This document shows positions 9,656 to 34,190 of a stretch of DNA of 64,000 bases, piece after piece (position 1 is the first letter of the stretch; each line of letters starts with the position of its first letter). The translations under genes and the position numbers were made by a program. Under the pieces are notes generated by a model. It ran no database searches. It worked only from the letters and a program-made list of their open reading frames with translations, and was not told the DNA's origin. The stretch comes from Streptantibioticus cattleyicolor NRRL 8057 = DSM 46488 (lineage in GTDB: Bacteria > Actinomycetota > Actinomycetes > Streptomycetales > Streptomycetaceae), in assembly GCF_000240165.1 (NCBI RefSeq), contig NC_017586.1:682001-746000 (forward strand), in the 5' to 3' direction.

Positions 9656-9690
9656 CACTCCATCTGCATGCCCGAACCGAACGGAACCAT

Positions 9691-10394: not shown

Positions 10395-10409
10395 ACCGGT
10401 CCGGGCCTG

Positions 10410-10655: not shown

Positions 10656-10741
10656 GAAGGGTTCCTTGTCTTCCGGGACCGGCATCGCCGGGGCCCATCG
10701 GTAGGTAGAGAGGCTGGTGCAATGCGAACTTCGAGGTGGGC

Positions 10742-10776
10742 GGCGCCCCGGGGTGGTCGTGCGAGCCCGGGGCGCC
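10742..10776 (-). other. Intercistronic hairpin, CACGACC loop (copy 2)
   Basis: 11-bp stem GGCGCCCCGGG/CCCGGGGCGCC. The transcript loop contains CGCACGACCAC. It lies 11 nt after the stop of the 95-aa gene. Confidence 0.75.
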
Positions 10777-10786
10777 CCGTCGTTGG

Positions 10787-11074: not shown

Positions 11075-11133
11075 TCCGAGGGGTCGGGTTCCCGACTCCG
11101 GCTGTCCGTTCCGTCGTGGTCGTTCAGCTGGGA

Positions 11134-11170
11134 CGGCGCCCCGGGGTGGTCGTGCGAGCCCGAGGCGCCG
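11134..11170 (-). other. Intercistronic hairpin, CACGACC loop (copy 3)
   Basis: 12-bp stem with one mismatch (CGGCGCCCCGGG/CCCGAGGCGCCG). The loop contains CGCACGACCAC. It lies 10 nt after the upstream stop and is very like copy 2, so it was probably duplicated with its gene. Confidence 0.75.
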
Positions 11171-11179
11171 CGCAGTTGG

Positions 11180-11458
11180 CTAGCTGGTTGCGATCCACGC
11201 CCTGGTGGCGACTCCGCCGACCCGCAGGTGGTGACCGTCATCCAACTCCGCGTAGCGCACGGAGTGTTTGATCCATGTGCGGACTACGCGACGCGGCTCA
11301 CCGGCCGCCCAAGTACTCCTGTCGCCAGAGGCGTACAGATGACCGCCCGAGGTGAGGCTGCACCAAATCCAGCACGGGGCGGTGACGCCCTTGAATGTCC
11401 TCCACTCCGGCGGCGTCTGCGGTTTGACCGCCGACTGTTCGCGTTCGTTCACCTGCAA
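11180..11458 (-). CDS. Hypothetical protein, 92 aa, paralogue of the 95-aa neighbour
   Basis: Same single domain as the gene at 10787: EWRTFKGVTAPCWIWC, LYASGDR, GEPRRVVRTW, TRAWIATS. It is first in a leftward operon with a paired operator promoter at 11502-11538. Its two invariant Cys/Trp positions (PCWIWC) are kept in the 95-aa copy, while the third copy has PFWVYC. No known function. Confidence 0.7.
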   Translation of the reverse strand: MQVNEREQSAVKPQTPPEWRTFKGVTAPCWIWCSLTSGGHLYASGDRSTWAAGEPRRVVRTWIKHSVRYAELDDGHHLRVGGVATRAWIATS

Positions 11459-11501
11459 CTCCTTCGCTGCGAGGGGTGAGTGTCCCGACTGCTACAATGA
11501 T

Positions 11502-11538
11502 AAGTGGTGCCGACTTAGTTGACAAGTCGGCACCGACT
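11502..11538 (-). promoter_or_regulatory. Paired operator and promoter of the 92/95-aa gene operon
   Basis: Operator copies at 11502-11515 (AAGTGGTGCCGACT) and 11525-11538 (AGTCGGCACCGACT, perfect) are 23 bp apart. The minus-strand -35 is TTGTCA, the spacer 17 bp and the -10 TATCAT. Confidence 0.75.
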
Positions 11539-11572
11539 CCACTTACCGACCCTCAGTCACACCGGGCGGCCA

Positions 11573-12247
11573 TCAACGCAGCGCGATCCAGAACTGACGG
11601 CCGGGGTGGCCAAGAGCTATCGACCGCCCATCCCGAGTGCGCCCGACGCGGTAACCGCGCCCCACCTCCGGGTCCACCTCCATACCCACCACACGGTACG
11701 GCTCACCGGTGGCCTTCTTCGGGTCAGAGGACGCGATGAGGAATCCGTTCGCCTCCTCGCAGTACACCCAGAACGGTGCAGACACCCCCGTCAGGCGTCG
11801 CCGCTCCGGGAGCGCCAACGGAACGCTCACGACATCGACACCCTCGCCCTGCACCGTACTGGCGTCCAGGTCGCCATACATCTTGGTCTGACGCAGGAAG
11901 TGCCGGACGCCCTCGCGCCCGATTCGGGCCACCGCGCCGTCCAGGTCGTCGGCGAAGTCCTCGCCGGACTCCACGAGTGCTTCCCTCAGGGCGTGCCGCG
12001 CGGCGCGAACCGCCCTGAGGACATCGGCGCCAGCATTCAGCTGCCCCAGCACGAGATGCCAGGGGGTCGCCTCGGCTTCGGCGACCAACAGGCTCTTCCA
12101 CAGGCGAGTGTTCGCCGGCTTGCCAGCGGCGAGCTGTCCAGCGAGTTCCCTGCGGGCGTCTTCCTCCTTGGCGATCGCGCTCGCGGCCCACTCGCGGGCA
12201 ATTCCCTCCAACTCGCCGGGCTGCATGACGGCATTGACGACAGTCAC
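11573..12247 (-). CDS. Two-domain hypothetical protein, 224 aa
   Basis: GTG start at 12247. Residues about 25-125 are helical and resemble the 136-aa protein at 14624 (A-PW--V-AE-Q-G shared in spirit: ATPWHLVLGQLNAG against ALPWRQVRAEIQSG, then a HFLRQT / DFLRLT end). Residues about 150-224 match the 92/95-aa family (GVSAPFWVYC, FLIASSD, GEPYRVVG, RQFWIALR). It is therefore a fusion of two domains that also occur separately in this element. The promoter carries a paired operator. Confidence 0.65.
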   Translation of the reverse strand: MTVVNAVMQPGELEGIAREWAASAIAKEEDARRELAGQLAAGKPANTRLWKSLLVAEAEATPWHLVLGQLNAGADVLRAVRAARHALREALVESGEDFADDLDGAVARIGREGVRHFLRQTKMYGDLDASTVQGEGVDVVSVPLALPERRRLTGVSAPFWVYCEEANGFLIASSDPKKATGEPYRVVGMEVDPEVGRGYRVGRTRDGRSIALGHPGRQFWIALR

Positions 12248-12292
12248 CAGGACTCCCTTCTCGGGGGCGCTTCCCCCTCACAACTTCATGTT

Positions 12293-12329
12293 AACCCATG
12301 CCGACTCGAATTCCTAGTTGGTACCGACT
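12293..12329 (-). promoter_or_regulatory. Paired operator upstream of the 224-aa gene
   Basis: AGTTGGTACCGACT (12316-12329) and a half-site copy ending GCCGACT (12293-12306), 23 bp apart. The minus-strand -10 is TAACAT with a poor -35 TAGGAA at 17 bp. The leader has a GGGGG/CCCCC mini-hairpin. Confidence 0.65.
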
Positions 12330-12491
12330 TTGCGATTGAAGGGATGTGTCAGCCCCAACCAGGCCAACGAGAGCACGTCAATACCCGGGGCACCGGCGCA
12401 GCCTGCGCCCGCCGACAGTCGGAAGACGGCCCCAGGCAGTGACGTCACGCGGCTTCTCCTTGCCGCCGACGCTCCTCCCTATCGGACAGAA

Positions 12492-12526
12492 CCGCGCCCC
12501 GCCTGATCCTCCGCAACGGGGCGCGG
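12492..12526 (-). terminator. Terminator after the 242-aa gene
   Basis: 10-bp stem CCGCGCCCCG/CGGGGCGCGG with a 15-nt loop, just beyond the leftward stop at 12540. Confidence 0.6.
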
Positions 12527-12539
12527 CTTCGTGTCACTG

Positions 12540-13268
12540 TTAGGTGAGTCGCTTCAAGGCCGCAGACGCCATCTCGCGCCGATGCTCCCGAGCAACCCGC
12601 CGCGCGACCTCACGGTCTTCCGTCCACTGCGACCATCCGCACGTGCAACTCGCCACGCTGGAGCCGTCGTACACCCGGCCGGAACGGCGCCCCGGCTTGC
12701 ACAAGCCGACCGTGCCGCTCATGCCGATGTCCGCCGGGTACACATAGCCGCGGGGTTCCCCTGTGCTGGTTCGGTGATCAGCAGCCAGCATGGCCAGCCG
12801 AGCCGCGAGCACCACCCGCACCGGGGTGCGTATCTCCTTCAACCGTCCGTGGGACGTGTCCTCGTACGGCAGACCAAGGACCACCATGCCGCGCTCGACG
12901 AGCCGCCGGGCTGCGGCCGGCGGCACCGAGTAGAAACCCAGCATGATCCGCCCGACGCGATCGCGGAACGGCATCTCCGCCTTGTCCACCCGATACGCCC
13001 TGTCCGAGTCGGCGATCGCCTCCAGGTCCTGGCGCATGGTCGGCGTCATGACACCAAGGGGCTTGGCCGGCTCCAGGCTCACAGTCCGCCGCGACGGCGT
13101 CGAGCTGCCCGTCGACCAGACGTCGCGGGTGATGACCAATCCCCCGGTGCGGGTGGCCTCCAGCGGGAACCTTCGGTCCACCGCTCGCCGCAGCATCACG
13201 ATGGCGTGGTCCTCGCTGCACAACCCGGTGGTGGTGCCGTCCCCCGCCTGGATCTTCTGTATGAACAC
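12540..13268 (-). CDS. Hypothetical protein, 242 aa
   Basis: Soluble, basic protein beginning MFIQKIQAGDGTTTGLCSED. The C-terminal third contains CTCGWSQWTEDREVARRVAREH, a short segment frequent in actinobacterial mobile-element proteins, with a Cys pair that could bind zinc. It is the last gene of the long leftward operon that starts at the promoter near 15700. Function unknown. Confidence 0.6.
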   Translation of the reverse strand: MFIQKIQAGDGTTTGLCSEDHAIVMLRRAVDRRFPLEATRTGGLVITRDVWSTGSSTPSRRTVSLEPAKPLGVMTPTMRQDLEAIADSDRAYRVDKAEMPFRDRVGRIMLGFYSVPPAAARRLVERGMVVLGLPYEDTSHGRLKEIRTPVRVVLAARLAMLAADHRTSTGEPRGYVYPADIGMSGTVGLCKPGRRSGRVYDGSSVASCTCGWSQWTEDREVARRVAREHRREMASAALKRLT

Positions 13269-13292
13269 TGCAACTCCTGCATGATGTTGTGG

Positions 13293-13331
13293 CGCTGCGC
13301 CCGGCCTGGTCGTGCGTGGCCGGGCGCAGCG
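13293..13331 (-). other. Intercistronic hairpin, CACGACC loop (copy 4)
   Basis: Perfect 14-bp stem CGCTGCGCCCGGCC/GGCCGGGCGCAGCG with an 11-nt loop (sense ACGCACGACCA), 11 nt after a stop and 25 nt before the next start. Confidence 0.8.
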
Positions 13332-13341
13332 AAGGTGCGAG

Positions 13342-14538
13342 CTATTCGGCTGCCTTGTCCCGGGCTGCGTCGAGTTGCTGCTGCATCTCCTCAGCCGACT
13401 TGCGCCCCGTCACCCCGTCATACGGCGCGGTCCACGTCCAATCGAGGTGTCCGTCCCCCTTCCGGACAACCGCGCGACCGATGCCGTTGTGAATGTGCGG
13501 GATCGTTACCGACCTGGCATTCACTCGCAGCACCTCGTACCAGGTGCCTCGGTATTCCACGAAGTCGCCCTTGGCGAAGTCAGCCTTTCCCCAGACCTTG
13601 AAGCCGTCCGCCTCCGCCTCGGCGATCACCTGCCGCCAATAGGCGATCTCCTCTTCCAGCTCCGCCTTGCGCCGGTTCAGCTCAGCTACCCATGCGGACG
13701 CCTTCTCCGAGCCGTCGCCATGCTGAGTTTCAGCAGCGATCTGGCGGTGCACCCGCCGCAGGTCCGCCTCCAGCTTCGCGATACGGCGCAGCGTGACCCC
13801 CGGGTTCTTCCGGAACTCCTCGTACGACGCGGACGCCGCCGCCCGCCGGGCGAGGTACTCGGCCTTGTCGGCCTCCTTCACGCCCTTCTCGGTGTTGCTC
13901 CAGATGCGGTCCCGGTCGCGTTCCGCCCGCCGCTGCGAGTGGTGCCCTAGGAGGATCGGCTGCCCGAGCGGTATCCCGTCGGCGATCCGGCGCGCGGTGG
14001 CGTGGGCCGCCGCGGACCGGTCCGCGGCGTTGCCGGCGTACCCCTGGAACCGCTCGGCGCGTGCCGCAGAACGCGCCACGCGGTCGGCCTCGGCCTCGGC
14101 GAACGAGCGGCGGGTGTCCTCGTCCACGCGGATCTCGACGGTCCAACCAGCCGCGCGCAGCGCCTCGGCGGCGCGGCGGATGGACCAGTGGTCGGCCCGC
14201 TTGTCCCGGGAATGCCGGATGAACAGCACGCCCGGCAGGGAGCGGCCCCAGGTGAACTGGTGGGGGCGGACGATTTCCCACACGCCGTCACCCTTGCGGG
14301 AACCCTCCAGCAGGGTGCCGTCGGCACGGGTGTGGGTGATGGTAATGGTTCCCCGGTGCGTGCCCTGCTCCGCCAGTTGGGCCAGCAGCTCCTCGGACGG
14401 CTGGAGGTGGGCGTTCCAGCACGCCGGAGCGGTGCAGGCATACCAGGTGCCGGTGAACCCCTGCTCGGACGTCTCGGCCATGCGCAGCGCCATGGGGCCG
14501 TGCTGGGCGCAGGCGGGGGCGCTGTCCGTGTCGGCCAC
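13342..14538 (-). CDS. DUF3560 family protein, 398 aa
   Basis: Residues about 60-330 carry the DUF3560 signatures: ITITHTRADGTLLEGSRKGD, WSIRRAAEALRAAGWTVEI, FAEAEADRVARSAARAERF, DGIPLGQPILLGHHSQRRAE and TLRRIAKLEADLRRVHRQI. The N-terminus has Cys/His residues that may form a zinc knuckle, and the C-terminus a short beta domain (KGDFVEYRGTWYEVLRVN). The family is common on Streptomyces plasmids and conjugative elements; its biochemical role is not known. It lies in an operon with three small genes behind an operator promoter. Confidence 0.85.
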   Translation of the reverse strand: MADTDSAPACAQHGPMALRMAETSEQGFTGTWYACTAPACWNAHLQPSEELLAQLAEQGTHRGTITITHTRADGTLLEGSRKGDGVWEIVRPHQFTWGRSLPGVLFIRHSRDKRADHWSIRRAAEALRAAGWTVEIRVDEDTRRSFAEAEADRVARSAARAERFQGYAGNAADRSAAAHATARRIADGIPLGQPILLGHHSQRRAERDRDRIWSNTEKGVKEADKAEYLARRAAASASYEEFRKNPGVTLRRIAKLEADLRRVHRQIAAETQHGDGSEKASAWVAELNRRKAELEEEIAYWRQVIAEAEADGFKVWGKADFAKGDFVEYRGTWYEVLRVNARSVTIPHIHNGIGRAVVRKGDGHLDWTWTAPYDGVTGRKSAEEMQQQLDAARDKAAE

Positions 14539-14571
14539 GGGTGTTCCCTTTCTCGTCGGTGGGTCGGGGGT

Positions 14572-14617
14572 GCCGGTCCGTCCCTGCCCGGTTGAGTGGC
14601 AGGGACAGACCGGCGGT
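14572..14617 (-). other. Intercistronic hairpin with a divergent loop
   Basis: GTCCCTGCC pairs with GGCAGGGAC around CGGTTGAGT, extended outward by CCGGTC/GACCGG with a bulge. It occupies the same stop-to-start position as the CACGACC family but the loop differs. Confidence 0.5.
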
Positions 14618-14623
14618 TGGGGT

Positions 14624-15034
14624 TCAGGCGGACGGCTGCTTGTGCTTGGCGAAGCGGGCGGTGAGGCGGAGGAAGTCGCGGGACGCCTCCCGCTCCATGC
14701 GCTCGAACTCGTTGAGCAGACCGTCCGCCTGAACCCCCTCGCTCATGGAGAGCAGTCGCCGGGTCAGCTCGGCGCGGACGTCGAGCAGAGCCGCGACGGG
14801 GGCCAGGCCGGACTGGATCTCCGCGCGAACCTGGCGCCACGGGAGGGCGGCGGCCTGCGCGCGCAGGACCGGCCCCAGACTGAGGGGGTCGATGTGGAAG
14901 GAGCCGGCGGCCATGTCGGTGGCCAGCTCCTGCCGCTTCTTGTCGGCGCGAGCGATGGTGGATTCGGCGACGGAGAGGATCTCGGCGGTGGCGGATGCTT
15001 CCGGTGTTGGCATGCTGGGCATCGGTTCCTCCAC
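14624..15034 (-). CDS. Helical hypothetical protein, 136 aa
   Basis: Almost entirely helical (ATAEILSVAESTIARADKKR, LLNEFERMEREASRDFLRLT). It resembles the N-terminal domain of the 224-aa protein at 11573. The start may be ATG 15034 or 15022. Hairpin copy 5 ends 17 nt before the first ATG. Function unknown. Confidence 0.6.
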   Translation of the reverse strand: MEEPMPSMPTPEASATAEILSVAESTIARADKKRQELATDMAAGSFHIDPLSLGPVLRAQAAALPWRQVRAEIQSGLAPVAALLDVRAELTRRLLSMSEGVQADGLLNEFERMEREASRDFLRLTARFAKHKQPSA

Positions 15035-15050
15035 GGATGGTGGTGGCTGG

Positions 15051-15084
15051 GCCGCGCTCGGCCGGTCGTGCGGCCGAGCGCGGC
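15051..15084 (-). other. Intercistronic hairpin, CACGACC loop (copy 5)
   Basis: Perfect 13-bp stem GCCGCGCTCGGCC/GGCCGAGCGCGGC. The loop is only 8 nt (sense GCACGACC), which defines the minimal conserved core. It lies 16 nt after the upstream stop. Confidence 0.8.
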
Positions 15085-15099
15085 GTGGGACAGGGGCTT

Positions 15100-15387
15100 C
15101 TACCGCTGGTGGCGCGGCTGGAGGAGGGTGGTCAGCCCTACCCGCCAGGCGTACTCCTGGGCGGTCCGGAGGTTAGGGAACTGCTGGCCGTGGTGGGTGG
15201 GGTGGTGGGTGACGGCGTGCGTGCCGGGGGCAATCTGCGTTACGTCTACGTGCGTGACGTGGAGAACGGCACCCCGGATGTCTCGGCCGGTCTCATAGCT
15301 GACGCCCCAGTGGGAGGCGGTGGTGTATCGAGCCTCGGGGTCGAAGGGCCCCGTGTTGACGATGTTCTGATCGGTCGTGGTGGTCAT
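15100..15387 (-). CDS. Hypothetical protein, 95 aa
   Basis: Start placed at ATG 15387 (MTTTTDQNIVNTGPFDPEAR), with GAAGGC upstream. It is His-rich in the middle (THVDVTQIAPGTHAVTHHPTHH), possibly metal-binding but unproven. The leader to the previous gene holds hairpin copy 6 and a second hairpin at about 15410-15440. Function unknown. Confidence 0.6.
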   Translation of the reverse strand: MTTTTDQNIVNTGPFDPEARYTTASHWGVSYETGRDIRGAVLHVTHVDVTQIAPGTHAVTHHPTHHGQQFPNLRTAQEYAWRVGLTTLLQPRHQR

Positions 15388-15495
15388 GGGTTTGCCTTCT
15401 CGGTCGTGGGAGCGCCGCGCCCGCTGGGGGTCGGGCGCGGCGCGGTGAGGGAGCACCCGCTGATGGGGCGCGGCGTCTGGAGGGTGCGCCCAGGG

Positions 15496-15532
15496 GGCCG
15501 TCCCGGGCTGGTCGTGCGATCCCGGGACGGCC
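15496..15532 (-). other. Intercistronic hairpin, CACGACC loop (copy 6)
   Basis: 12-bp stem GGCCGTCCCGGG/CCCGGGACGGCC. The sense loop is ATCGCACGACCAG, identical to copy 1 although the stems differ. It lies 6 nt after the stop of the 30-aa gene. Confidence 0.8.
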
Positions 15533-15537
15533 GGGGC

Positions 15538-15630
15538 TCAGTGGCCGAAGGCCACGGCGGTGATGATCGCCGAGCCGATGACCGCGATGATCACGGCGGC
15601 GATCAGGTCGCCGACCCCCAGACGCCTCAC
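15538..15630 (-). CDS. Single-helix membrane peptide, 30 aa
   Basis: GTG 15630 is preceded by an excellent ribosome site (AAGGAGG, 6 nt). The product starts MRRLGVGDLIAAVIIAVIGS: two arginines followed by about 18 hydrophobic residues, then AFGH. It is the first gene of a long operon behind a paired operator, so it is clearly meant to be expressed. Single-helix proteins of this size often modulate a membrane partner or act as phage or plasmid toxins or holin-like peptides; which applies here is unknown. Confidence 0.65.
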   Translation of the reverse strand: MRRLGVGDLIAAVIIAVIGSAIITAVAFGH

Positions 15631-15649
15631 GGTGCCTCCTTCCGTTGTT

Positions 15650-15671
15650 CCGGGGCGGGTCGGTCCCGCCC
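15650..15671 (-). other. 5' leader hairpin GGCGGG-CCCGCC before the 30-aa gene
   Basis: In the minus-strand leader GGGCGGGACCGACCCGCCC folds into a tight stem, followed by CGGAACAAC and the ribosome site. The same hairpin type, with CGGAACAAC after it, is found in the leader of the gene at 16602. Confidence 0.6.
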
Positions 15672-15685
15672 ACATCCACAAATTT

Positions 15686-15722
15686 AGTTGGTACCGACGC
15701 GGTTTTCAAGTCGATACCGGCT
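15686..15722 (-). promoter_or_regulatory. Paired operator and promoter of the 15630-12540 operon
   Basis: AGTTGGTACCGACG (15686-15699) and AGTCGATACCGGCT (15709-15722), 23 bp apart. The minus-strand -35 is TTGAAA, the spacer 17 bp and the -10 TAAATT. The transcript begins with a GGCGGG/CCCGCC hairpin. Confidence 0.75.
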
Positions 15723-15817
15723 ACTTGCGGCAAAGGGTTGTGCAACTCCGGCGAGCCCGAGCGCCAGCGCCGGAGCCCAGCCGCCCGCGGCGCCCCGGGC
15801 CCCGACGCCGCCGTGCA

Positions 15818-15946
15818 TCACAGATACCGGTAGTCGGCCTCGTAGTCGTCGACACGATCGCGGCCCTCGGCCTCGACGGGCTGACGGGCGGAACATCCGG
15901 GCTCGCAGTGTTCGTCGCAGCAGCAGCCCTGGTCGTGTATGCGCAT
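15818..15946 (-). CDS. Cys-rich small protein, 42 aa
   Basis: ATG 15946 with GAGGGGGA upstream. The N-terminal half (MRIHDQGCCCDEHCEPGCSA) holds five cysteines and two histidines, suited to a metal site. The C-terminal half is acidic with three tyrosines. The leader from the divergent operator promoter contains a GGGCGG/CCGCCC hairpin. Function unknown; a metal-binding or redox peptide is plausible. Confidence 0.6.
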   Translation of the reverse strand: MRIHDQGCCCDEHCEPGCSARQPVEAEGRDRVDDYEADYRYL

Positions 15947-16005
15947 CGGGTCCCCCTCGGATCCGGCGGGCGGTTCCGTTCCGCCCCCCTCATGTTCGTA
16001 ATCCT

Positions 16006-16071
16006 AGTCGGCACCGACTTCATTCTCACGCCCGTGGACGAGTTGTTTTTTAAGTCGGCGCCGACTACTAT
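16006..16071. promoter_or_regulatory. Divergent promoters with operators 47 bp apart
   Basis: AGTCGGCACCGACT (16006-16019) and the perfect palindrome AGTCGGCGCCGACT (16053-16066). A degenerate third site lies midway (about 16030-16043), giving roughly 23-bp phasing. Rightward: -35 TTGTTT (16043-16048), 17 bp, -10 TACTAT. Leftward: -10 TAGGAT with a weak -35. Each strong site lies in one spacer. Confidence 0.7.
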
Positions 16072-16081
16072 AGTAAGCGTG

Positions 16082-16101
16082 AGGGCGGGAGGTGCCCGCC
16101 C
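16082..16101 (+). other. 5' leader hairpin GGGCGGG-CCCGCCC before the gene at 16119
   Basis: A 7-bp stem with a 5-nt loop begins about 10 nt after the predicted start of transcription. It is followed by AGGATCGGGAGG and the ATG. Confidence 0.6.
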
Positions 16102-16118
16102 AGGATCGGGAGGATCCG

Positions 16119-16502
16119 ATGACCGTCAAGCCCGTCAACCACCGAACGGTGCTGAATCTCCTCCACCCGCTCCAGCGGGTGATCTCCATAGCGACCGTCA
16201 ACGGCCGTCACGAGACAGTCCGGATCGGCGAGCTGGTCGTCACCTGCTCCTTGAGCAAGACCTTCCGGTACGACGCCTACGACGGGGTGACCATCACGGT
16301 CATCAACCCCGCCGTCGGCATCCTGGACGTGAACGCGTTCCGGTTCGCCGACTACGGAGTGACCACCGGCACCAGCGAGAAGCACTCCCTGACGCTGATC
16401 ACTCCCGCCACCGCCGCATCCCTGGCGGATGGGGTGGGGATGACCGAGATGGAGCAGGCCATCCGCCGGTACCTGTCCGACTTCACCGGCATCGACCTCT
16501 AG
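16119..16502 (+). CDS. Hypothetical protein, 127 aa
   Basis: ATG 16119 with GGGAGG 6 nt upstream. Begins MTVKPVNHRTVLNLLHPLQR. The middle is beta-rich (ETVRIGELVVTCSLSKTFRY) and the C-terminus helical (EMEQAIRRYLSDF). It is a monocistronic unit between two operator promoters. Function unknown. Confidence 0.65.
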   Translation: MTVKPVNHRTVLNLLHPLQRVISIATVNGRHETVRIGELVVTCSLSKTFRYDAYDGVTITVINPAVGILDVNAFRFADYGVTTGTSEKHSLTLITPATAASLADGVGMTEMEQAIRRYLSDFTGIDL

Positions 16503-16510
16503 CAACTTTT

Positions 16511-16552
16511 AGTCGGTACCGACTTGTTTTTGCGGTCGGTACCGACTAATAT
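16511..16552 (+). promoter_or_regulatory. Best example of the paired operator promoter (gene at 16602)
   Basis: AGTCGGTACCGACT (16511-16524, perfect palindrome) and GGTCGGTACCGACT (16534-16547), 23 bp apart. The -35 TTGTTT (16524-16529) lies between them and the -10 TAATAT (16547-16552) directly after the second. The spacer is 17 bp. Confidence 0.85.
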
Positions 16553-16562
16553 TAAGGGTGTG

Positions 16563-16582
16563 AGGGCGGGAGAGTCCCGCCG
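16563..16582 (+). other. 5' leader hairpin GGCGGGA-TCCCGCC before the gene at 16602
   Basis: A 7-bp stem with a 3-nt loop starts about 11 nt after the -10. It is followed by GGAACAACCGGGAGG, which includes the ribosome site. Confidence 0.65.
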
Positions 16583-16601
16583 GAACAACCGGGAGGTTGA
16601 G

Positions 16602-17132
16602 TTGGAAACCGATCACAAGCACGGGGCGGATTGCCTAAGACTGTCCGCCACCCTCGCCGAGCTGGCACCCGGCATGCTGGTCCTCCACAACGGCAAGTGG
16701 CACACGGTCCAGCACACCTGGACCGCCGCCTTCACCGGCGCGTCCACCTTGCACCTGGCCGGCAGGACCCCGATCCCTTGCCTCGCTCGGGATCCGTGGA
16801 CCGTCCACGCGCCGGATGCCACGGTGCGAGTGCCAGCCCACGACGGCGAGCTGGTCTTCGTGGAGCACCTGCTGGCCGTGATGCAGCTGTCCACGATCGG
16901 CCTGTCACCCGACGAGCGTTACGCGGTGGCCAGGTGGATCGCCGAAGCCGCCCCGCTGTGCTCCCCCGCCGGGACGTACGCCGCGTCCCCGGAGTACAGC
17001 GTCGCCCAGGCGACGGCGAAGTTACTGGCGCTCAGCACCCGGGAGCTGCTGACGACGTACCAGCGGCTGCGCAGTGACACCGAGCGGCTGGCACGGCTGA
17101 TGGAGCGGGTCCGCCGGGAGCTGTCCTGCTAG
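16602..17132 (+). CDS. Hypothetical protein, 176 aa (TTG start)
   Basis: Start chosen at TTG 16602, 5 nt after GGGAGG; no nearer ATG or GTG fits. Residues about 12-80 form a beta-rich region (LAPGMLVLHNGKWHTVQHTW, DATVRVPAHDGELVFVEH). Residues about 85-176 are helical and end with a coiled-coil-like segment (TYQRLRSDTERLARLMERV). Monocistronic, operator-controlled. Function unknown. Confidence 0.6.
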   Translation: METDHKHGADCLRLSATLAELAPGMLVLHNGKWHTVQHTWTAAFTGASTLHLAGRTPIPCLARDPWTVHAPDATVRVPAHDGELVFVEHLLAVMQLSTIGLSPDERYAVARWIAEAAPLCSPAGTYAASPEYSVAQATAKLLALSTRELLTTYQRLRSDTERLARLMERVRRELSC

Positions 17133-17142
17133 CTCCACTCTA

Positions 17143-17184
17143 AGTCGGTGCCGACTTGTAAAACAGGTCGGCACCGACTACACT
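17143..17184 (+). promoter_or_regulatory. Paired operator and promoter of the gene at 17230
   Basis: AGTCGGTGCCGACT (17143-17156) and GGTCGGCACCGACT (17166-17179), 23 bp apart. The -35 is TTGTAA (17156-17161), the spacer 17 bp and the -10 TACACT (17179-17184). Confidence 0.8.
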
Positions 17185-17192
17185 AAGAACAT

Positions 17193-17210
17193 CGGCGGGA
17201 ACATCCCGCC
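17193..17210 (+). other. 5' leader hairpin GGCGGGA-TCCCGCC before the gene at 17230
   Basis: Same stem as in the 16602 leader with a different loop (ACA), placed about 9 nt after the -10 and followed by CCAACCCGGAGGG. Confidence 0.65.
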
Positions 17211-17229
17211 CCAACCCGGAGGGAACGCA

Positions 17230-17883
17230 ATGACCACCTTCACCGCGGCCGAGCGCAAGACGGCGACGGGCACCAAGGTCTACCTGCACTGGAACTGCAC
17301 CTGCCACCGCATCGGCGGCAGGACCCTCAAGGACATCACCTCCCCCGCCGACGCCATGGCTTACGCCACGGAGCGCGGATACACCACCGGCTACTGCAAG
17401 ACGTCACCGGAAGCCCCCGACGCCGCGCCCGCCCTCGACCAGCCCCAGACCCCGGCGACCGACACCACCGAGGAAGAGCCGGCCCCAGTGCCCGAGGGGA
17501 GCCCCGTCGAGAGCAGCAGCGAGTGGACTGTCGAGGTGAACAACCTCGACCAGGCGGGCAAGCAACGCCGCGACGGAATCACAGCCATCGTCTCAGCACT
17601 CGGCGGCGGGCAGATCACCTACACGTCGATCAAGACGAAGAGCAAGCGCGGCAACGCTGCGTTCGTCGTCACCGTGACCGGCAACCCCGCGGCCGAGCAG
17701 CCGGTCCGGGCATGGCTGACGGCCATGGAAGCGGAGCTGCCCACCACCGTGGAGCGGGCCAAGGCCGAAGCCAAGGCAATGGAGGGCGCCAGCAGCAACG
17801 ACCGCATGAAGGCGTGGAAGGGTGCCGTGCGCCGCTGGATCGCGCAATCCGGCGCCGACTTCGCTGCGGAGTTGCGCGCCTGA
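17230..17883 (+). CDS. Hypothetical protein, 217 aa
   Basis: The N-terminal domain (residues 1-62) has WNCTCHRIGG and a later Cys, a possible zinc site. A Pro/Glu-rich linker (65-98) follows, then a C-terminal domain (100-217) beginning EWTVEVNNLDQAGKQRRDGI with a beta-alpha pattern and ending in a long helix. Strong GGAGGG ribosome site. Operator-controlled single gene. No family recognised. Confidence 0.65.
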   Translation: MTTFTAAERKTATGTKVYLHWNCTCHRIGGRTLKDITSPADAMAYATERGYTTGYCKTSPEAPDAAPALDQPQTPATDTTEEEPAPVPEGSPVESSSEWTVEVNNLDQAGKQRRDGITAIVSALGGGQITYTSIKTKSKRGNAAFVVTVTGNPAAEQPVRAWLTAMEAELPTTVERAKAEAKAMEGASSNDRMKAWKGAVRRWIAQSGADFAAELRA

Positions 17884-17895
17884 CCGACCATAGAT

Positions 17896-17937
17896 ATCCG
17901 GTGCCGACTTAAGTACCTTGTCGGCACCGGGTACAGG
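17896..17937 (+). promoter_or_regulatory. Paired operator and promoter of the 18068 operon
   Basis: ATCCGGTGCCGACT (17896-17909) and TGTCGGCACCGGGT (17919-17932), 23 bp apart. The -35 is TTAAGT (17909-17914), the spacer 17 bp and the -10 TACAGG. A GGGGGCCG/CGGCCCCC hairpin begins the transcript. Confidence 0.7.
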
Positions 17938-21231: not shown

Positions 21232-21777
21232 CTAGGGTTGGTCGTTCGGCCGTTGTCGGCAGATCGCACAGTAGGCGCGGCCATCGGCATACAACCGGCC
21301 GTGCAGGGTTTGGTCATGGCCACTGCGGCACTGCGACGGGCGTGACCGCCCGCCCCCGAGGTACCGGAGCTGTTCTCGCAGGCGCGTGCGGCCGGGGGTG
21401 TCTTCGATGTGCGCCGGTTCGACGCAGTGGTCCATGTCGCACTCTGGCTGTGCGTATCCCTGGGGTTCGCGTCCGGTGCGGAGGCGGAAGGCAATCCGGG
21501 ACGCGGTGTACATCTTGCCGCGGTGCCGGAACACTGGGGTGCCATTGGCTTGCCGAGGCCCAGTCCACTCCAGGTGGCCGCCCGCGACCGGCCGCGTGCG
21601 TGCACGGAACGCTGCCTCTACCGAGGGGTAGGGCACCGGGTACGTCGGTGGCCGCACAGCTGGGATCCCTAGATCACGTTGAATCGCCGGAACGGTGGCG
21701 GGCGGCCGACTGTCGGTCCAGCGGACCGTCCCGTCCCGCACTTGTGTTGCCAAGTCAGTACTGGTCCGGGTGGTCAC
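21232..21777 (-). CDS. HNH-endonuclease-like protein, 181 aa
   Basis: GTG 21777, with GGAG upstream, lies inside the end of the previous gene. Residues about 60-140 have the order of a phage-type HNH fold: LEWTGPR, a K-Y-ASRIAF helix, ECDMDHCVEPAHIEDTPGRT (Cys-His-Cys then N/E-x-x-H), then a Cys pair (CRSGH ... CAICR). The canonical second Asn of HNH is replaced by Glu, so activity is uncertain. It could be a homing-type or restriction-like nuclease, or only a DNA-binding zinc protein. Confidence 0.65.
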   Translation of the reverse strand: MTTRTSTDLATQVRDGTVRWTDSRPPATVPAIQRDLGIPAVRPPTYPVPYPSVEAAFRARTRPVAGGHLEWTGPRQANGTPVFRHRGKMYTASRIAFRLRTGREPQGYAQPECDMDHCVEPAHIEDTPGRTRLREQLRYLGGGRSRPSQCRSGHDQTLHGRLYADGRAYCAICRQRPNDQP

Positions 21778-22657
21778 CGTGATGCTCCTGCGGATCTTCG
21801 GTTTGGTAGACGCGGGCGCTGTCGATGTCCCCTGAGCGCCAGGTGACGCCGCGGAGTGTGCCGGGAGGTGCTTGGTGCTCATCGTGTGGCCCGCGGACGG
21901 TGCAGCGGGTATAGCCGAGGCCGCCGAACTCTGCTGCGCACGGCGGTGCTTCGGGCGGTGCTGGCACTGGCTGCGCCGCCGGGATCTCGGCGTCCAGCAC
22001 TGCACGGATGGCTCGGTGGTGTGCGGGGATGCGCATCAGGTGTGTGTCGACCTGGCGCCCGGCTTCCGTACAGGAATCACCTGACGGTGCAGCGCAGACG
22101 GGACAGGGGGCGACGATGGGGTCGGAGTCCATCAAGCGCTTGGCTCGGTCCAGCTCCGCCCAAGCGGCGTCCCGCGCTGCGGCGATCACGTCGGCGGCCT
22201 GGTGCGCGAGCGTGGCGAACGCCCGCAGCTCGCGGTTGTCGCGCAGGAGACGGAACAACAGGATCTCGCGTTCATGAGATGTGCGCTTGGAGCCTCTTGC
22301 GCGAGCGGAGTACCAGGCTGTGCGGTACCGGTCGCGCTCCTCGGCCCTCTCCAGGGCATTGCGAACCTCGCCCGGGGTGTAGCAGGCGCGGTCCGCGAAC
22401 TCGGGGAAGCTCACGGAATCGGTGACGTCATACCAGGTCGTGGTGTCGTACTGTTCCTCGTCCTGGAAGTGGCCGAACCAGCGGCTCTCGGACACCGGGT
22501 GCTTGGCCCAGCCGACCGCCCGCAGATGTCCGCGGGCCGGATGGCGGGTGACGTGCTCCACGTAGAACAGGACGGAGAGCTCCGGTGCCCGGTACCCGCC
22601 GCCAATGTCGAGGTAGGTGCGGCCCGGTTGGAAGAACTCAGGGATGGGGTTGGTCAT
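21755..22657 (-). CDS. Hypothetical protein with zinc knuckle, 300 aa
   Basis: The N-terminal domain (1-90) is beta-rich (LSVLFYVEHVTRHPARGHLR). A central helical region (100-190) and a cysteine cluster (CPVCAAPSGDSC, residues about 187-198) follow. The Pro-rich tail overlaps the HNH gene by 23 nt. Hairpin copy 10 ends 22 nt before the ATG. The cluster resembles zinc knuckles in Streptomyces phage proteins; function unknown. Confidence 0.6.
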   Translation of the reverse strand: MTNPIPEFFQPGRTYLDIGGGYRAPELSVLFYVEHVTRHPARGHLRAVGWAKHPVSESRWFGHFQDEEQYDTTTWYDVTDSVSFPEFADRACYTPGEVRNALERAEERDRYRTAWYSARARGSKRTSHEREILLFRLLRDNRELRAFATLAHQAADVIAAARDAAWAELDRAKRLMDSDPIVAPCPVCAAPSGDSCTEAGRQVDTHLMRIPAHHRAIRAVLDAEIPAAQPVPAPPEAPPCAAEFGGLGYTRCTVRGPHDEHQAPPGTLRGVTWRSGDIDSARVYQTEDPQEHHGDHPDQY

Positions 22658-22757: not shown

Positions 22758-23021
22758 TCAGTCGTCTCCGTCTTCCACGGGCAGTGCTCGGAGTTCCGCG
22801 AGCGCGAGCCCGTAGGCGGCGCACCAGCCTTCGCAGTAGGTACGGGCCGGCTCTCTGGAGCCGTCCACGTGGACGCGACACATGCCGACCGGGGTCGTCG
22901 TGCCCGTAGCCTCCCTGCCGCACCCTTCGACCGGGCACTTGCCGGGCCCCACCAGGGTGCGCCCCGGCGCGGTCCCCCCGGTCTTGCCTCGGTTCCAGCT
23001 CTGCTGAGCGTGGCTGGCCAC
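22758..23021 (-). CDS. Small zinc-finger-like protein, 87 aa
   Basis: GTG 23021 overlaps the stop of the Mini-A-like gene (TAGTG), so the two are coupled. CPVEGCG, then CRVH, then CEGWC give four or more metal ligands. Such small Cys/His proteins often accompany phage nucleases and topoisomerases. Partnering with the upstream protein is inference. Confidence 0.6.
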   Translation of the reverse strand: MASHAQQSWNRGKTGGTAPGRTLVGPGKCPVEGCGREATGTTTPVGMCRVHVDGSREPARTYCEGWCAAYGLALAELRALPVEDGDD

Positions 23022-23932
23022 TAACGGTCACCGCCCTCAGCGACCAGCGCGGCAACCTCATGCCAGCGCCCGGATACGGCCTTCAGCAGGCGGCGTTCGC
23101 GTTCCATCCGCTGGGTGGCCGCGTCCCACAGTTCGGCGTCCCGCCAAGCCCGGATCTCGCTTTCGATGATTCGATCCAGCGTGGTGGGGTCGAGAGCGTC
23201 CAGCTCCCAGCTGCTGCGCCCGTACTGCCGGACGTAGCTGCTCGCACGGCTGTCGGTCAACTTCGCGGGGTTCGGCGGCGGCTGGTGCGTCTCCACCTGG
23301 TCCATGTTCAGTGCGATCCGCCGGACATCGACGTCCGCGCCGAACAACCGCAGTCGCTCTGCGATGTCCCGAGTCATGTCGATCCCAGACGGGTCGTGAT
23401 CACCGAGGTGGATGACAACCGGCTTCTGCCCGGACCGCTCGTACCGGGCCAGCCGCTGCGCCGCCCCCCACAGCTCGGACTGGGATGTGTAGCCACGGCA
23501 CGAGAAGTAGTCGACGTCGTTGCGCTGGCAGACGCCGCTGATGACACCGACCAAGGCGTCCTTCTCGATCCAGACCTCGACGCGATGTGGCTGGTTGGCC
23601 CATCGTTCGGTGCGGTAGCCGGCGGCAGCGGATCGGATGATGGACTCCGGCGCGTCCCAGTGGGACAGGCCGCGCAGGTTCCGGGTGCGGTCCACGATGT
23701 AGTCCCAGTCCAGCAACCCGGCCAGCCGTGCATCGTTGATGATGCTGCCCAGCCGCTTGTACTCGGTCTGCGCGTTGGCCAGGAAATCTCTGGCGACGAA
23801 CTGGTAGTACAGCTGGCGCAGCGTCAGGTCGAACCCTTGTCGCATGTACTCGCCGCAGATCGCCTCGGCCTTGGCGATGATGTCGAGGCTGGCGGCACTG
23901 AACCGCCTCTCAACGTACGCGATACGAGGCAT
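23021..23932 (-). CDS. Stand-alone Topo VI A / Spo11-like protein (Mini-A type), 303 aa
   Basis: The N-terminal part has the winged-helix signature with candidate catalytic tyrosines (LTLRQLYYQFVARDFLAN, residues about 35-52). The Toprim half follows: VWIEKDALVGVISGVC supplies the conserved glutamate and VIHLGDHDPSGIDMTRDI the DxD motif that binds magnesium. The order 5Y-CAP winged helix then Toprim, at about 300 residues with no B subunit nearby, fits the Mini-A group of Topo VIA-like proteins known from mobile elements. It may cut or nick DNA for replication or recombination. The start overlaps the previous stop (TGATG), placing it in an operon with the 234-aa gene and the small zinc protein. 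Confidence 0.8.
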   Translation of the reverse strand: MPRIAYVERRFSAASLDIIAKAEAICGEYMRQGFDLTLRQLYYQFVARDFLANAQTEYKRLGSIINDARLAGLLDWDYIVDRTRNLRGLSHWDAPESIIRSAAAGYRTERWANQPHRVEVWIEKDALVGVISGVCQRNDVDYFSCRGYTSQSELWGAAQRLARYERSGQKPVVIHLGDHDPSGIDMTRDIAERLRLFGADVDVRRIALNMDQVETHQPPPNPAKLTDSRASSYVRQYGRSSWELDALDPTTLDRIIESEIRAWRDAELWDAATQRMERERRLLKAVSGRWHEVAALVAEGGDR

Positions 23933-24636
23933 CAGTGCCCGCTCCCCGGCGTTATGCGCAGGCACGGGCAGTCAGCCCTACCCTCCGCAGTCCCGGATGG
24001 GAGAGCGTGCCCCGTGTGCGTGGCAGTCGGTCGGGTGAACTCGCCCGCGGACTTCGGCTGGCTGCCGTCGCGGGTGTCCTTCCCAAGCGCGCCACTCGCC
24101 TGCGCGGGAGTCTCAGACGTCGGGCCAGCGTTGGGCACGCTGTTCTGCCCGTCCTGGTCTGCCTCACCGTTCGGGTCAAGGAGTGCCGCCCCCAGGGCCT
24201 CGCGGAGATCGTCGTCGAGGAACAGCGCGGCGGGGCGGCCGTCATCGGTCATGCAGCACACGATGGTGTCCTCGTCTGAGGCCGGGCCGGGGTAGATCAC
24301 ATGGCGGGCCCAGTGAATGCTGAGCGGAACGGCGCAGGTTGTAGCCCGGTGGGATCTGGCGCGTGCGGACAGCCATGCTGCTCTGTAGCGCTCGGCCAGG
24401 GCCTCGGCGTTGAGCAGGCGGCGCAGCAGATGGCCGGTGCGCTCGCCCATGTAGCACGTCAGGTTGATGCTGAACCAGTCCACGGACTGCGAGGCGTGGT
24501 CGTGGTGGGCCAGGTCGTGGATGATCCGGGCGCACATGACCAACTGCTCGACGCCAGCGGGCTGGGCGGTGCCGATGTACTCGGATATCAGCTGGCGCTG
24601 CTCGGCGGTCAGCTTGTCCCATCCGATGTCGGGCAT
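23932..24636 (-). CDS. Hypothetical protein, 234 aa
   Basis: The N-terminal 100 residues are helical (MPDIGWDKLTAEQRQLISEY, CARIIHDLAHHDHASQSVDW). A short beta region and a disordered tail of about 80 residues follow, which may tether the next protein. The arrangement AERYRAAWLSARAR is also found in the 300-aa neighbour (RDRYRTAWYSARARG), indicating a shared domain. Hairpin copy 11 precedes it by 21 nt. Function unknown. Confidence 0.6.
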   Translation of the reverse strand: MPDIGWDKLTAEQRQLISEYIGTAQPAGVEQLVMCARIIHDLAHHDHASQSVDWFSINLTCYMGERTGHLLRRLLNAEALAERYRAAWLSARARSHRATTCAVPLSIHWARHVIYPGPASDEDTIVCCMTDDGRPAALFLDDDLREALGAALLDPNGEADQDGQNSVPNAGPTSETPAQASGALGKDTRDGSQPKSAGEFTRPTATHTGHALPSGTAEGRADCPCLRITPGSGH

Positions 24637-25927: not shown

Positions 25928-26560
25928 TCAGTACGGCGGCGCGGCGTCAGCGCGATTGGCGGGCTGGCTGGTCCACGGGTCGTCGGCCGGCGGACTGCCC
26001 CAGGTGCTTGCCGCTTCCGTCGAAGCCGCGGAGGACGAGCTGTTGCCCCACCCCTCGACACGGCGCTGCACCTTGGTGACCTTGGCCGTGGCATTGCGGA
26101 GCGAGGCGCCGACCTCGTCGACGTCGAGTTCGTAGACCGTCCGCTTGACGCCCTCACGGTCTTCGTAGGTGCGCTGCTTCAGCCGGCCCTGCACGATGAC
26201 GCGCATGCCGCGCTGGAGTGACTCGGCCACGTTCTCAGCTGCCTGGCGCCAGATCGAGCAGGTCAGGAACAGACTCTCGCTGTCCTTCCACTCCTGGGTG
26301 TCCCGGTCGTAGGTGCGGGGAGTGGAGGCGATGCGGAACTTAGTGACCGCGGCACCGGATGGCGTGAAGCGCAACTCGGGGTCGTCCACGAGGTTGCCTA
26401 CGACAGTGATGATCGTCTCTCCTGGCATGGCAAGAGCCTGCCTTTCCGTCGGATTGGCGATTGCGTTGAGGGGTGGTGAGCCGGCACACCTGTAGCTGGC
26501 GTGCCCTGGCTCGTTGCCGAGGTGGTAGGCCGGGCAGAACCGGCATTCGTAGATCACCAA
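25928..26560 (-). CDS. ssb: Single-stranded DNA-binding protein with Cys-rich N-terminal extension, 210 aa
   Basis: From residue 45 ([20 protein letters not shown]) the sequence is a typical bacterial SSB OB-fold ([58 protein letters not shown]) with a disordered tail ending DAAPPY; the usual acidic tip DDEPPF is degenerate. The frame extends upstream to GTG 26560, which overlaps the previous stop, adding [12 protein letters not shown] and a third Cys, a possible zinc finger. The ribosome site at residue 45 is weak, so a fused protein is likely; two nested starts are also possible. Confidence 0.85.
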
Positions 26561-27558
26561 GTGCTGGCGTCCGGCCCGGCGGCGCAGGGGCTTCCGCGCG
26601 AGCTTGGCCTGGTGGTACGTCGGATACGAGCCGGTCTTGGTGCGGCAGGCGCCGTTTGGAGATCGGCCGGGTGCGGCCCGGGCATGTCAGCGAGGTCGAC
26701 GGTGCGGTGTGCGTCGTTGTCGCGGTCCAGGGCCCACGTCGGATCGTAGGGCCAGGTCTCGCCGCGAGCTTTCGCCGCAGCCTTGATGCGTTCCCATGAC
26801 CTGCCGACCGACTGGGGCTTCATGCCTAGGGCGAGCGCGATGGCGGAGCGGTCCATGCGACGCCGACGGGTGCCGTACTCGATGGCTGCCGCCCGGTCCC
26901 AGAGGTGCAGCGGGACGCGTTCGCCTTCCAGAGCCCGGATGACGGCGGCGTGATCGACGATTCGCGACTCGCCGCCCTGCCACCCGTGTTGAGCTCTGGC
27001 CCGGGGGTCCTCGATACGGTCGTCGTCCCACGCCAGCGGGCTGGCGTAGCCGCGCTCCACGGCTGTGCGCCGGGTTGCGTGCGCCACGTTGCCGGGCACG
27101 CCGTGATCCTCGGGACAGGCGTTCCACCAGTGGTCGTACAGGGTCGCCGCCTTCAGACGGTCGAAGACGGTGATGGGGCGGGTGGTCGACTCTCCTTCGA
27201 GTACCCAGTCGATGTATGCCGACTGCCAGCCGAGCGCGTCAGCCATGGCAGAGGGGGGCCATCCCTTCCACATGAGCGCAGCCAGCCGCCGGCGGGTGCC
27301 GAGGGACCGCGTCGGGGCGGTGAGCCGGCCGCACGGCAGGATGGGTATGGCCAGCAGGCGTCGCTCGACGTCCCAGCCGATGGGACGGATCGCGGCGGCC
27401 CGCCGCACGGCGTCGGGCGTGGTGCGTACGTGGGTCGCAGTGACGGGGTCAGGGATGCCGATCAGCCGGAGTGCGCGGACGTGTACGGCGGCGGGCAGGC
27501 TGCGCACGGTGCGGCGTATCAGCAGCCGGTCGGTGCGTAGATGACATGCGGTGGTCAC
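26554..27558 (-). CDS. Protein with two helix-turn-helix segments, 334 aa
   Basis: GTG 27558 overlaps the RusA stop (GTGA). HTH-like segments lie around residues 98-130 ([20 protein letters not shown]) and 255-285 ([20 protein letters not shown]). The stretch between contains [13 protein letters not shown]. Proteins with repeated HTHs of this kind occur next to replication genes in actinobacteriophages. It may be a regulator or a DNA-binding recombination partner; the family is not identified. Confidence 0.6.
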
Positions 27559-28043
27559 GGCTGGACGGTCCAGACGGTGAGGAGGGCCCCGGGCCGCGGC
27601 AGGGCATACGGCCCGAGGTGTGGATACGTCTTGCTGAGGCCCCGGTACGCGACGATCAGGCCGTCGTCCTTCCACACCACGCCGGTCAGGGCGTCCTCAG
27701 TGCTGCGCACCAGCTTCGACAGGTCCGGATACACGCTCGGGTAGACACGCCCTTGAGGCATACGCTGCGGCGCCGGCATGGTGAAGTGCATCCCCACCGC
27801 CAGGGCCTCGGTCAGCAGCGTCCACCGTGGCAGCGAGCGCAGCCGGACGCGGGCAGCTGCTGCTACGGCCTCACGCCAGGGCTTCACCTTCGCGGACGAC
27901 TCGACCAGGACGGGGACGCGCTTACCGTTACGGCTGATGCGGTATCCCTTTGGGGTCTTGCTGCCCTGCGGCCCCGGGATACCCCACACCACCATCTCGA
28001 ACACCGGGTCCGGGCCGCACAGTGGCTGAGCTTGGGTGCTCAC
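27555..28043 (-). CDS. rusA: RusA-family Holliday-junction resolvase, 162 aa
   Basis: The family signature is clear: VWGIPGPQGSKTPKG at the N-terminus, VKPWREAVAAAARVR, and DLSKLVRSTEDALTGVVWKDDGL, where the Asp residues (PDLSK, the later ED and DD) form the magnesium-binding site. RusA cuts four-way junctions during recombination or replication. GTG 28043 overlaps the stop of the methyltransferase gene, giving strict coupling. Length is slightly above the E. coli protein because of N- and C-terminal additions. Confidence 0.85.
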   Translation of the reverse strand: MSTQAQPLCGPDPVFEMVVWGIPGPQGSKTPKGYRISRNGKRVPVLVESSAKVKPWREAVAAAARVRLRSLPRWTLLTEALAVGMHFTMPAPQRMPQGRVYPSVYPDLSKLVRSTEDALTGVVWKDDGLIVAYRGLSKTYPHLGPYALPRPGALLTVWTVQP

Positions 28044-33449: not shown

Positions 33450-33655
33450 ACACCGGGACAACAACGCTCCCCCAGCATGCCTCCTCACGGCTTCCCTTGG
33501 GGTACCCCGTCGCCCGGAGCTGGTCGAGCTGCCTCATCACCACCAGCAATGCGCGGCCGGGGTCTAAACGCGGTAGGACTTCATGCGCCACCGATTTGGT
33601 TGCCGCTCCCGGCAGCATCGCCCGTGAATGAGTCAGTCCGCCCTTGCTGTGGAGC

Positions 33656-34190
33656 GCGGGCAATACGCGGGCAAGCCTGAACGCCTCGGACGCCGCAGTG
33701 ATCAGTACAGCGTCACTGACCTGCAATTCAATCCGCCAGAATGGAAGCCGAATGGGGGACGGCGGGTTATACGTGGGACCCGTGGCGCCGGTCGAAGACG
33801 GGGTGAGGTCGCCGCCGGTGGAAAGGGTTCGGCCTGGTCAGCGCGGCAGCGCACGGCCGGACGCCCCGCCGGGGGCGAGTCCGGCCAGTGGCGGCTGCCA
33901 CCGGGTAGTTTCGGCTGCCCGCCGGCAATACGCGGGCAAGTTCTGATTACCCGTCAGCGAGCATCAGTTTCGGGGTGGACGCGGGCAAGTTCTGACCGCC
34001 CGTGGGCGTGCGGGACCCTCGCGGCGGGCGCGGGCAATACGCGGGCAAGCCTCGACGCTTCAGTCACCGCAGTCACCAACACCCCCTCCCTGACCTGCGC
34101 TTTCCTCCGCAACGACGGAGCCCGCACTACAGGCGGTCGGGTACACCTACGACCCGTGGCGCCGGTCGAAGACGGGGTGACGTTGTCGGG
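33656..34190. repeat. Diverged direct repeats with a GGCAATACGCGGGCAAG core
   Basis: GGCAATACGCGGGCAAG occurs at 33659, 33924 and 34033, with a partial copy at 33981. The first and last copies begin blocks of about 150 bp that also share the end word GTGGCGCCGGTCGAAGACGG (near 33783 and 34157). Similarity between the blocks holds in all frames, so this is a DNA-level duplication. Confidence 0.6.

Follow-up and report, generated by a model that had tools for sequence, protein, structure and literature searches.

The closest described relatives of the gene analysed here are the Mini-A proteins, a family whose founding paper is reportedly that of Takahashi et al. in 2020. They are grouped with Topo VI and Topo VIII in type IIB (PMC8185306), and they have been described both as truncated Top6A homologues found in archaeoviruses and bacteriophages (PMC7614492) and, in a 2024 paper, as an ancient homologue of Topo VI-A/Spo11 in viruses (PMC11302465). 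A first-pass annotation of the present sequence had regarded such proteins as known from mobile elements but little explored in their activity. A 2021 review reports that neither Mini-A nor archaeal Topo VIII has been characterised (PMC8185306). In addition, we found no study of Mini-A activity among the open-licence papers listed by our searches, outside which such work may exist.

Among the better described relatives, the Topo VI-A subunit of M. mazei has a catalytic tyrosine, Y106, an arginine four residues earlier, R102, and an acidic tetrad of E202, E254, D256 and E342, and in the resting state of Topo VI the tyrosines of the A dimer are held out of reach of the metal site until an ATP-driven movement of the B subunit brings them in (PMC13040014). 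Topo VIII, like Mini-A, is a type IIB relative carried on mobile elements (PMC8185306), and the Wadjet nuclease JetD is described as having a CAP domain with no catalytic tyrosine (PMC10586767).

The Mini-A gene, its predicted fold and its predicted catalytic residues

Judged by its sequence, one gene in the window (the whole stretch of 64,000 nucleotides that was analysed) is a member of the published and already described Mini-A family, with homology far beyond chance. It lies on the minus strand, running from an ATG at 23932 to a stop codon that ends at 23021, and encodes an intact protein of 303 aa (P0002); an alternative in-frame GTG start is present at 23965. The first-pass annotation had placed the gene correctly at 23021-23932, to which we add the strand. 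The profile phrog_6247 (‘DNA topoisomerase’) matches residues 4-293 with an E-value of 2.4e-109, and a protein of Pseudomonas phage NP1 is 46.2% identical over 94% by tblastn and 48% identical (E 4.7e-82) in a second search. This NP1 protein is the Mini-A exemplar that is drawn in a review figure and named in its legend (PMC7614492). The window protein has in common with it an identity of 46-48% over approx. 94% of the length, a single PHROG family, carriage by a mobile element and the lack of a B subunit, and we found no defining difference between the two, although the host lineage (here a Streptomyces prophage) and the neighbouring genes differ. The gene is a sound and correctly recognised Mini-A; the family was known already and what is new is this copy. 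Its predicted parts are as follows.

23021..23932, minus strand: Mini-A protein, 303 aa; phrog_6247 E 2.4e-109; identity with the protein of phage NP1, 46-48%
23684..23899, minus strand: winged-helix (Y-CAP-like) part, residues 12-83; AlphaFold2 model of residues 1-110, pLDDT 86.8
23804..23806, minus strand: Y43, predicted catalytic tyrosine; Y in 72/72 close and 18/18 divergent homologues
23141..23608, minus strand: Toprim part, residues 109-264; AlphaFold2 pLDDT 89.9; VIA-align with 1d3y Z 10.0, rmsd 3.2, 139 aligned
23564..23566, minus strand: E123, predicted Toprim metal ligand; E in 72/72 close and 17/18 divergent homologues, D in the remaining one
23393..23401, minus strand: D178-H-D180, predicted Toprim DxD metal ligands; both D in 72/72 and 18/18

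With Pfam, the window protein matched Toprim_2 at an E-value of 0.11, below the cut-off, and over 73 Mini-A members only weak matches to TP6A_N (two), DUF2399 (one) and DUF4177 (five) were returned. NCBIfam profiles gave no match and, in this respect different from Topo VI-A, Mini-A matched no PDB chain at the sequence level, whether by single-sequence or by profile search. We also modelled the whole protein with AlphaFold2, at a pLDDT of 89.9 and a pTM of 0.82. By Foldseek this model matched nothing in the PDB at E ≤ 0.001 and a single entry, without a name, in BFVD at the same threshold.

The two predicted parts, the winged-helix one taken from a separate model of residues 1-110, were compared with known structures by VIA-align. 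The Toprim part, beyond its match with Topo VI-A 1d3y, scored a Z of 9.9 with M. mazei Topo VI (9o0g), 7.9 with Spo11 (8uru) and 9.4 with each of two nuclease structures, JetD (7til) and that of C. glutamicum (8b7f). De novo designed Rossmann proteins reached Z values of up to 10.5 over approx. 105 residues, level with Topo VI-A, and Z alone is therefore not specific to Topo VI; what does point to it specifically is the length over which the structures align, together with the catalytic residues. For the winged-helix part the best match was with residues 72-143 of Topo VI-A 1d3y, with a Z of 7.6 (rmsd 2.4, 69 aligned), a value below 8 that by itself may reflect a common arrangement only; the runners-up were M. 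mazei Topo VI (Z 6.8) and other winged helices (≤6.5). In this alignment residues 12-83 lie on 72-143 at a constant offset of 60, which places Y43 at position 103 in 1d3y, taken by us as the catalytic tyrosine there. By the range of the alignment, Mini-A starts at the winged helix, approx. 60 residues later than 1d3y. Because both predicted parts match 1d3y, the winged-helix and Toprim arrangement, whose absence would have refuted the first-pass annotation, is present in the prediction as far as the two parts taken singly are concerned.

The motifs named in that annotation were likewise found, as TLRQLYY (Y42 and Y43), WIEKDAL (E123) and GDHDPSG (D178 and D180, with codons at 23399-23401 and 23393-23395 of the minus strand respectively). 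Their conservation was assessed in an alignment of the window protein with 72 viral relatives, kept from 80 viral loci after omission of seven with an identical Mini-A and of the near-identical L043, and with 18 divergent homologues of at least 260 aa, nine of 27 divergent loci being shorter and omitted. R39, Y43, R69, G177, D178, D180 and G183 showed no variation in the 72 viral and 18 divergent homologues. Y42, in contrast, is Y, F, M or W among these 90, and so it is the second tyrosine of the YY pair that is fixed; with an invariant Y43 beside a variable Y42, a mutant of Y43 would be a clean one with which to assay cleavage. The R39-x3-Y43 spacing is that of R102-x3-Y106 in M. mazei Topo VI-A, and the D178/D180 pair stands where that enzyme has E254 and D256 (PMC13040014). 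E243 and D245 would be the candidates for the equivalent of its E342.

In common with Topo VI-A, Mini-A has a winged helix with a catalytic-type tyrosine, the Toprim E..DxD residues and the predicted fold. With Spo11 there is a similar predicted Toprim fold, alongside the invariant winged-helix tyrosine of Mini-A, but similarity is low and the meiotic partners of Spo11 do not apply to a phage. JetD/MksG also has the Toprim fold in common with Mini-A, but JetD is described as having no catalytic tyrosine (PMC10586767), whereas Y43 is invariant in 90/90 homologues. A search with PADLOC for the JetABC/MksBEF operon context gave no match among ten proteins of the region (Mini-A and nine others, some neighbours being unscanned), and a reading of the locus as a defence system was rejected on this result.

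The claim that no B subunit accompanies the protein also held. The Topo VI-B transducer (Topo-VIb_trans) was found in 0/51 records, i.e. the window genome and 50 viral contigs with Mini-A, and the same search was positive in four of 14 control genomes, all of them archaea. As the viral contigs may be fragments, absence from them is not proof. These contigs, which also served for the ATPase, SSB, phrog_887, DnaB and AAA_24 counts, are the first 50 in list order of 57 de-duplicated contigs of at least 35 kb. HATPase_c_3 (GHKL ATPase family) matched the host genome, as expected, and one of the 50 viral contigs, where the match was below the curated cut-off. The B subunit with its GHKL ATPase and transducer, a feature of the Topo VI holoenzyme, was in this sense not found with Mini-A. 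Topo VIII carries an ATPase part; in contrast, we found none in the 303-aa Mini-A, which has no room for one. Taken together, these data support the first-pass annotation in its main claim, namely a stand-alone Topo VI-A/Spo11-like Mini-A protein on a mobile element with both catalytic centres intact.

Distribution and gene neighbourhood

By tblastn, Mini-A relatives are present in 76 named phage records, the match spanning 80% or more of the query in 70, and 588 of 589 pattern-matched IMG/VR stretches encode one, counting only those close enough for the patterns; Mini-A is frequent in phage sequence, yet hardly studied. A further 44 plasmid records contain relatives (35 are from Streptomyces), those listed being 27-31% identical. 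The window genome (8.1 Mb) has one match at E ≤ 0.01, the window gene itself, and a sample of 297 genomes from the same family yielded matches at E ≤ 1e-5 in 24, window genome included, some of these matches being partial. None of 18 terminase-sharing contigs of at least 20 kb carries Mini-A (18 of 33 loci tested; a positive record was lacking within this search, though the query finds its target in others), and we therefore reject the idea that phages of this type have Mini-A among their core genes. The presence of Mini-A is patchy.

A divergent Mini-A-like group, at approx. 30% identity, comprises loci L082-L108 from same-family genomes and the Streptomyces plasmid matches among H43-H70. Y43 and the DxD pair are kept in the 18 of its 27 loci that are long enough to align, and the plasmid copies are mostly annotated as hypothetical. 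In addition, the circular Paenibacillus durus plasmid NZ_CP009289 (L113), of 15,151 bases, has 29 genes, most of them unnamed, which include one for a Zot-domain protein and one for a Mini-A with 52.6% identity; an element this small might serve as a minimal system in which to study the function of Mini-A.

Genes for terminase, portal, head maturation protease and tape measure proteins lie to the left of the window on the same strand, and the carrier of Mini-A is most likely one prophage, of which the ends and the integrase were not located. The ‘element’ of the first-pass annotation was apt as regards mobile carriage, but in view of these genes is better termed a prophage, and Mini-A lies in its early region. 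A separate gene of this prophage, at 2256-3125 of the window, has similarity to a replication initiator.

Also to the left of the window, in the same prophage (L114:11773-16642), are genes for QueE, QueC and two proteins matching phrog_887 (‘queuine tRNA-ribosyltransferase’), which we take to be DpdA-like; with this set, the prophage DNA may carry a 7-deazaguanine modification. As phrog_887 was found in four of the 50 Mini-A viral contigs and in 0/14 control genomes, a general link between Mini-A and such modification is unsupported.

Within the prophage, Mini-A sits in a minus-strand run of genes that includes a single-strand binding protein, a RusA-like resolvase and an HNH gene.

21232..22005, minus strand: HNH endonuclease, overlapping a neighbour ORF, true start uncertain; phrog_826 on residues 103-252, E 5e-27
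21755..22657, minus strand: ORF matching a phage zinc-binding motif weakly; PF24623 at E 0.006, which is under the cut-off
22758..23021, minus strand: small Cys-rich ORF of 87 aa immediately downstream of Mini-A; its GTG start shares one base (23021)
23932..24636, minus strand: upstream ORF, 234 aa, no family; one base (23932) in common with Mini-A; PHROG match at 0.07 only
25928..26560, minus strand: single-strand binding protein (SSB); PF00436 E 1.2e-30; phrog_44
27555..28043, minus strand: RusA-like resolvase; PF05866 E 1.6e-7; phrog_140

The single-base overlaps at 23932 and 23021 indicate that the tight packing of these genes is real. The operon described in the first-pass annotation stands to this extent, with the small Cys-rich ORF coupled to Mini-A by a one-base overlap and the HNH gene, identified by phrog_826, in the same run. 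It had further been thought possible that Mini-A, the small zinc protein and the HNH gene product form a cleavage machine of several parts. The 87-aa ORF has no Pfam match and reaches phrog_6998 only at an E-value of 0.044; by tblastn it has a homologue in one of 80 viral loci (L004, approx. 1.5 kb from Mini-A and not adjacent), and the Streptomyces phages Chymera and Kromp, which also have homologues of it, lack Mini-A (0/2, with NP1 as positive record). The 234-aa upstream ORF has no tblastn homologue in the 80 loci. To look beyond sequence similarity, we compared same-strand genes of ≤130 aa, taking as adjacent those within 150 nt: zinc-like small genes made up 8/39 of those directly downstream of Mini-A compared with 98/755 elsewhere, a difference that was not significant (Fisher p 0.22). 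In L005 a small Cys-motif gene does overlap the Mini-A stop, but tblastn gives it no relation to the Cys-rich ORF of the window.

Homologues of the window HNH gene were present in five of the 80 viral loci, 5-7 kb from Mini-A, three of these loci (L024, L025 and L027) sharing one Mini-A. HNH genes are frequent in phages, and both Pam3 and Fizzles have them a few genes from Mini-A. Among 122 directly adjacent same-strand genes, no PHROG was represented by more than two genes; the HNH-type PHROGs among them form four families, of 2, 2, 1 and 1 genes and perhaps overlapping, which counts against rejecting the machine. The largest recurrent neighbour family within 12 genes was found in 5/73 distinct viral loci, with coarse gene calls from which one gene or more is missing (the AAA_24 gene in L003 is such a case), and is a DnaB-type helicase, of which the member shown, in L064, covers a DnaB_C match. 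The absence of a widely recurrent neighbour, together with the homologue counts of the zinc protein and the HNH gene, leads us to reject a conserved multi-part machine: the tblastn, neighbour-family and small-gene tests do not support these two genes as parts of one machine, and the small zinc protein is not conserved beside Mini-A. By the same neighbour counts no general conserved partner was found in this sample, and SSB, present in only 2/50 contigs, is rejected as a partner as well.

Possible action of Mini-A on DNA

Polymerase, helicase or recombination genes were found in the fetched flank of seven of 12 named Mini-A records, Phobos and PspYZU01 representing one genus; in the flanks of the remaining five no such gene was seen, the genes there being unnamed or encoding RNR, ThyX, photolyase, MazG or endolysin. 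In NP1 a Sak4-like gene lies directly downstream of Mini-A, with a ligase and a Cas4-domain exonuclease near, and in Microbacterium phage Fizzles a Cas4 exonuclease lies directly upstream, whereas Phobos and PspYZU01 have endolysin and terminase genes immediately beside Mini-A. Genes of the AAA_24 family, presumably Sak4-like, lie ≤0.6 kb downstream of Mini-A in two of the 50 viral contigs (L003 and L020). Clustering by distance with replication or recombination genes was not significant, either for the DnaB-type helicase (13 pairs, p 0.25) or for AAA_24 (six pairs, p 0.12, 6/6 on the same strand; matches over the cut-off only, 6/11), and the terminase gave p 0.94 (10 pairs). The genes in the seven flanks nevertheless suggest a role in phage DNA metabolism.

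We infer that Mini-A acts in phage DNA metabolism as a dimer that cleaves DNA by means of its tyrosine and without a B subunit, a reading that we hold to be fairly probable as a whole, with cleavage, dimer and role all part of the inference. By analogy with Topo VI and Spo11, it would form a homodimer via Toprim, in which Y43 of one protomer would attack DNA held at the E123/D178/D180 metal site of the other, and the attack would leave a 5'-phosphotyrosyl break, as made by Topo VI-A and Spo11. With no ATPase clamp there should be no gated strand passage, so the protein would act as an ATP-independent cleaver or nicker. Since the tyrosines of Topo VI need a B-driven movement, Mini-A without B would have to be gated otherwise, e.g. 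by DNA bending or an unrecognised partner, or might not be gated at all. Its target would most likely be phage DNA, whose replication and recombination may depend on the breaks or relief nicks that it makes, and this role is the least certain step of the mechanism. The control of a Topo VI-A-like cutter that lacks a B subunit is a question that bears on Spo11 as well, and a Mini-A in a culturable phage makes it testable.

Several other readings were weighed against this one. There is a small chance that Mini-A is a Spo11-like, B-free break-maker that starts phage recombination, Cas4-type exonucleases and Sak4-like annealing proteins, such as those encoded beside it in NP1, then processing the tyrosine-linked breaks; the AAA_24 genes close to Mini-A in L003 and L020 would fit this. 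An unlikely reading is that of an ATP-independent relaxing topoisomerase, which would cut phage DNA, let supercoils out and reseal it; the predicted Topo VI-A-like fold and the invariant tyrosine would suit such an enzyme, but it would have no B subunit for a gate, resealing has no support here, and bacterial hosts possess type II topoisomerases of their own. In its favour, weak and partly ATP-independent activity has been reported for the related Topo VIII enzymes (PMC7614492).

It is also doubtful, and to our mind distinctly unlikely, that Mini-A destroys or nicks the DNA of the host or of competitors, in takeover or inter-phage conflict, while the phage's own DNA is shielded, here perhaps by the predicted 7-deazaguanine. 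The QueE, QueC and two DpdA-like genes of this prophage fit such a use, as does the exemplar phage NP1, a member of Queuovirinae, a subfamily that we take to be linked to 7-deazaguanine, and the absence of Mini-A from all 18 terminase-sharing contigs is the patchiness that an accessory weapon would show. However, the occurrence of phrog_887 in so few Mini-A contigs argues that the pairing is not general, and PADLOC recognised none of the ten proteins. If Mini-A were an initiator that nicks DNA and so provides a 3'-OH to prime the replication of phages or plasmids, this would account for its presence on the 15-kb P. durus plasmid, where none of eight genes scanned (of 29) had a clear replication family, but we regard this as very improbable: the Zot-domain protein of that plasmid also weakly matches a DnaA-like family (E 2.4e-4) and 21 genes were unscanned, the window prophage has its separate replication-initiator-like gene, and Mini-A is patchy in its presence.

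Other features of the window

The palindrome AGTCGGYRCCGACT occurs, with ≤2 mismatches, at 16 sites in window 1479-17909, most densely at 15686-17909, compared with an expected 1.64, and none of 100 shuffles reached 16. There are five exact matches in the 8.1-Mb genome, all within window 11525-17156. With ≤1 mismatch, nine of 19 genome sites are inside the window, the genome total being not above that of the reversed-pattern control (20). Of the 16 sites, 14 lie outside called genes and 13 precede a called start by 6-119 nt, with coarse gene calls and with starts on either strand, and three pairs of sites are spaced 23 nt. The set looks like the operators to which a prophage regulator would bind; no site with ≤2 mismatches lies in the gene run of Mini-A. 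In addition, a direct repeat of 161 nt, with 74% identity, is present at window 33654-33814 and 34028-34188.
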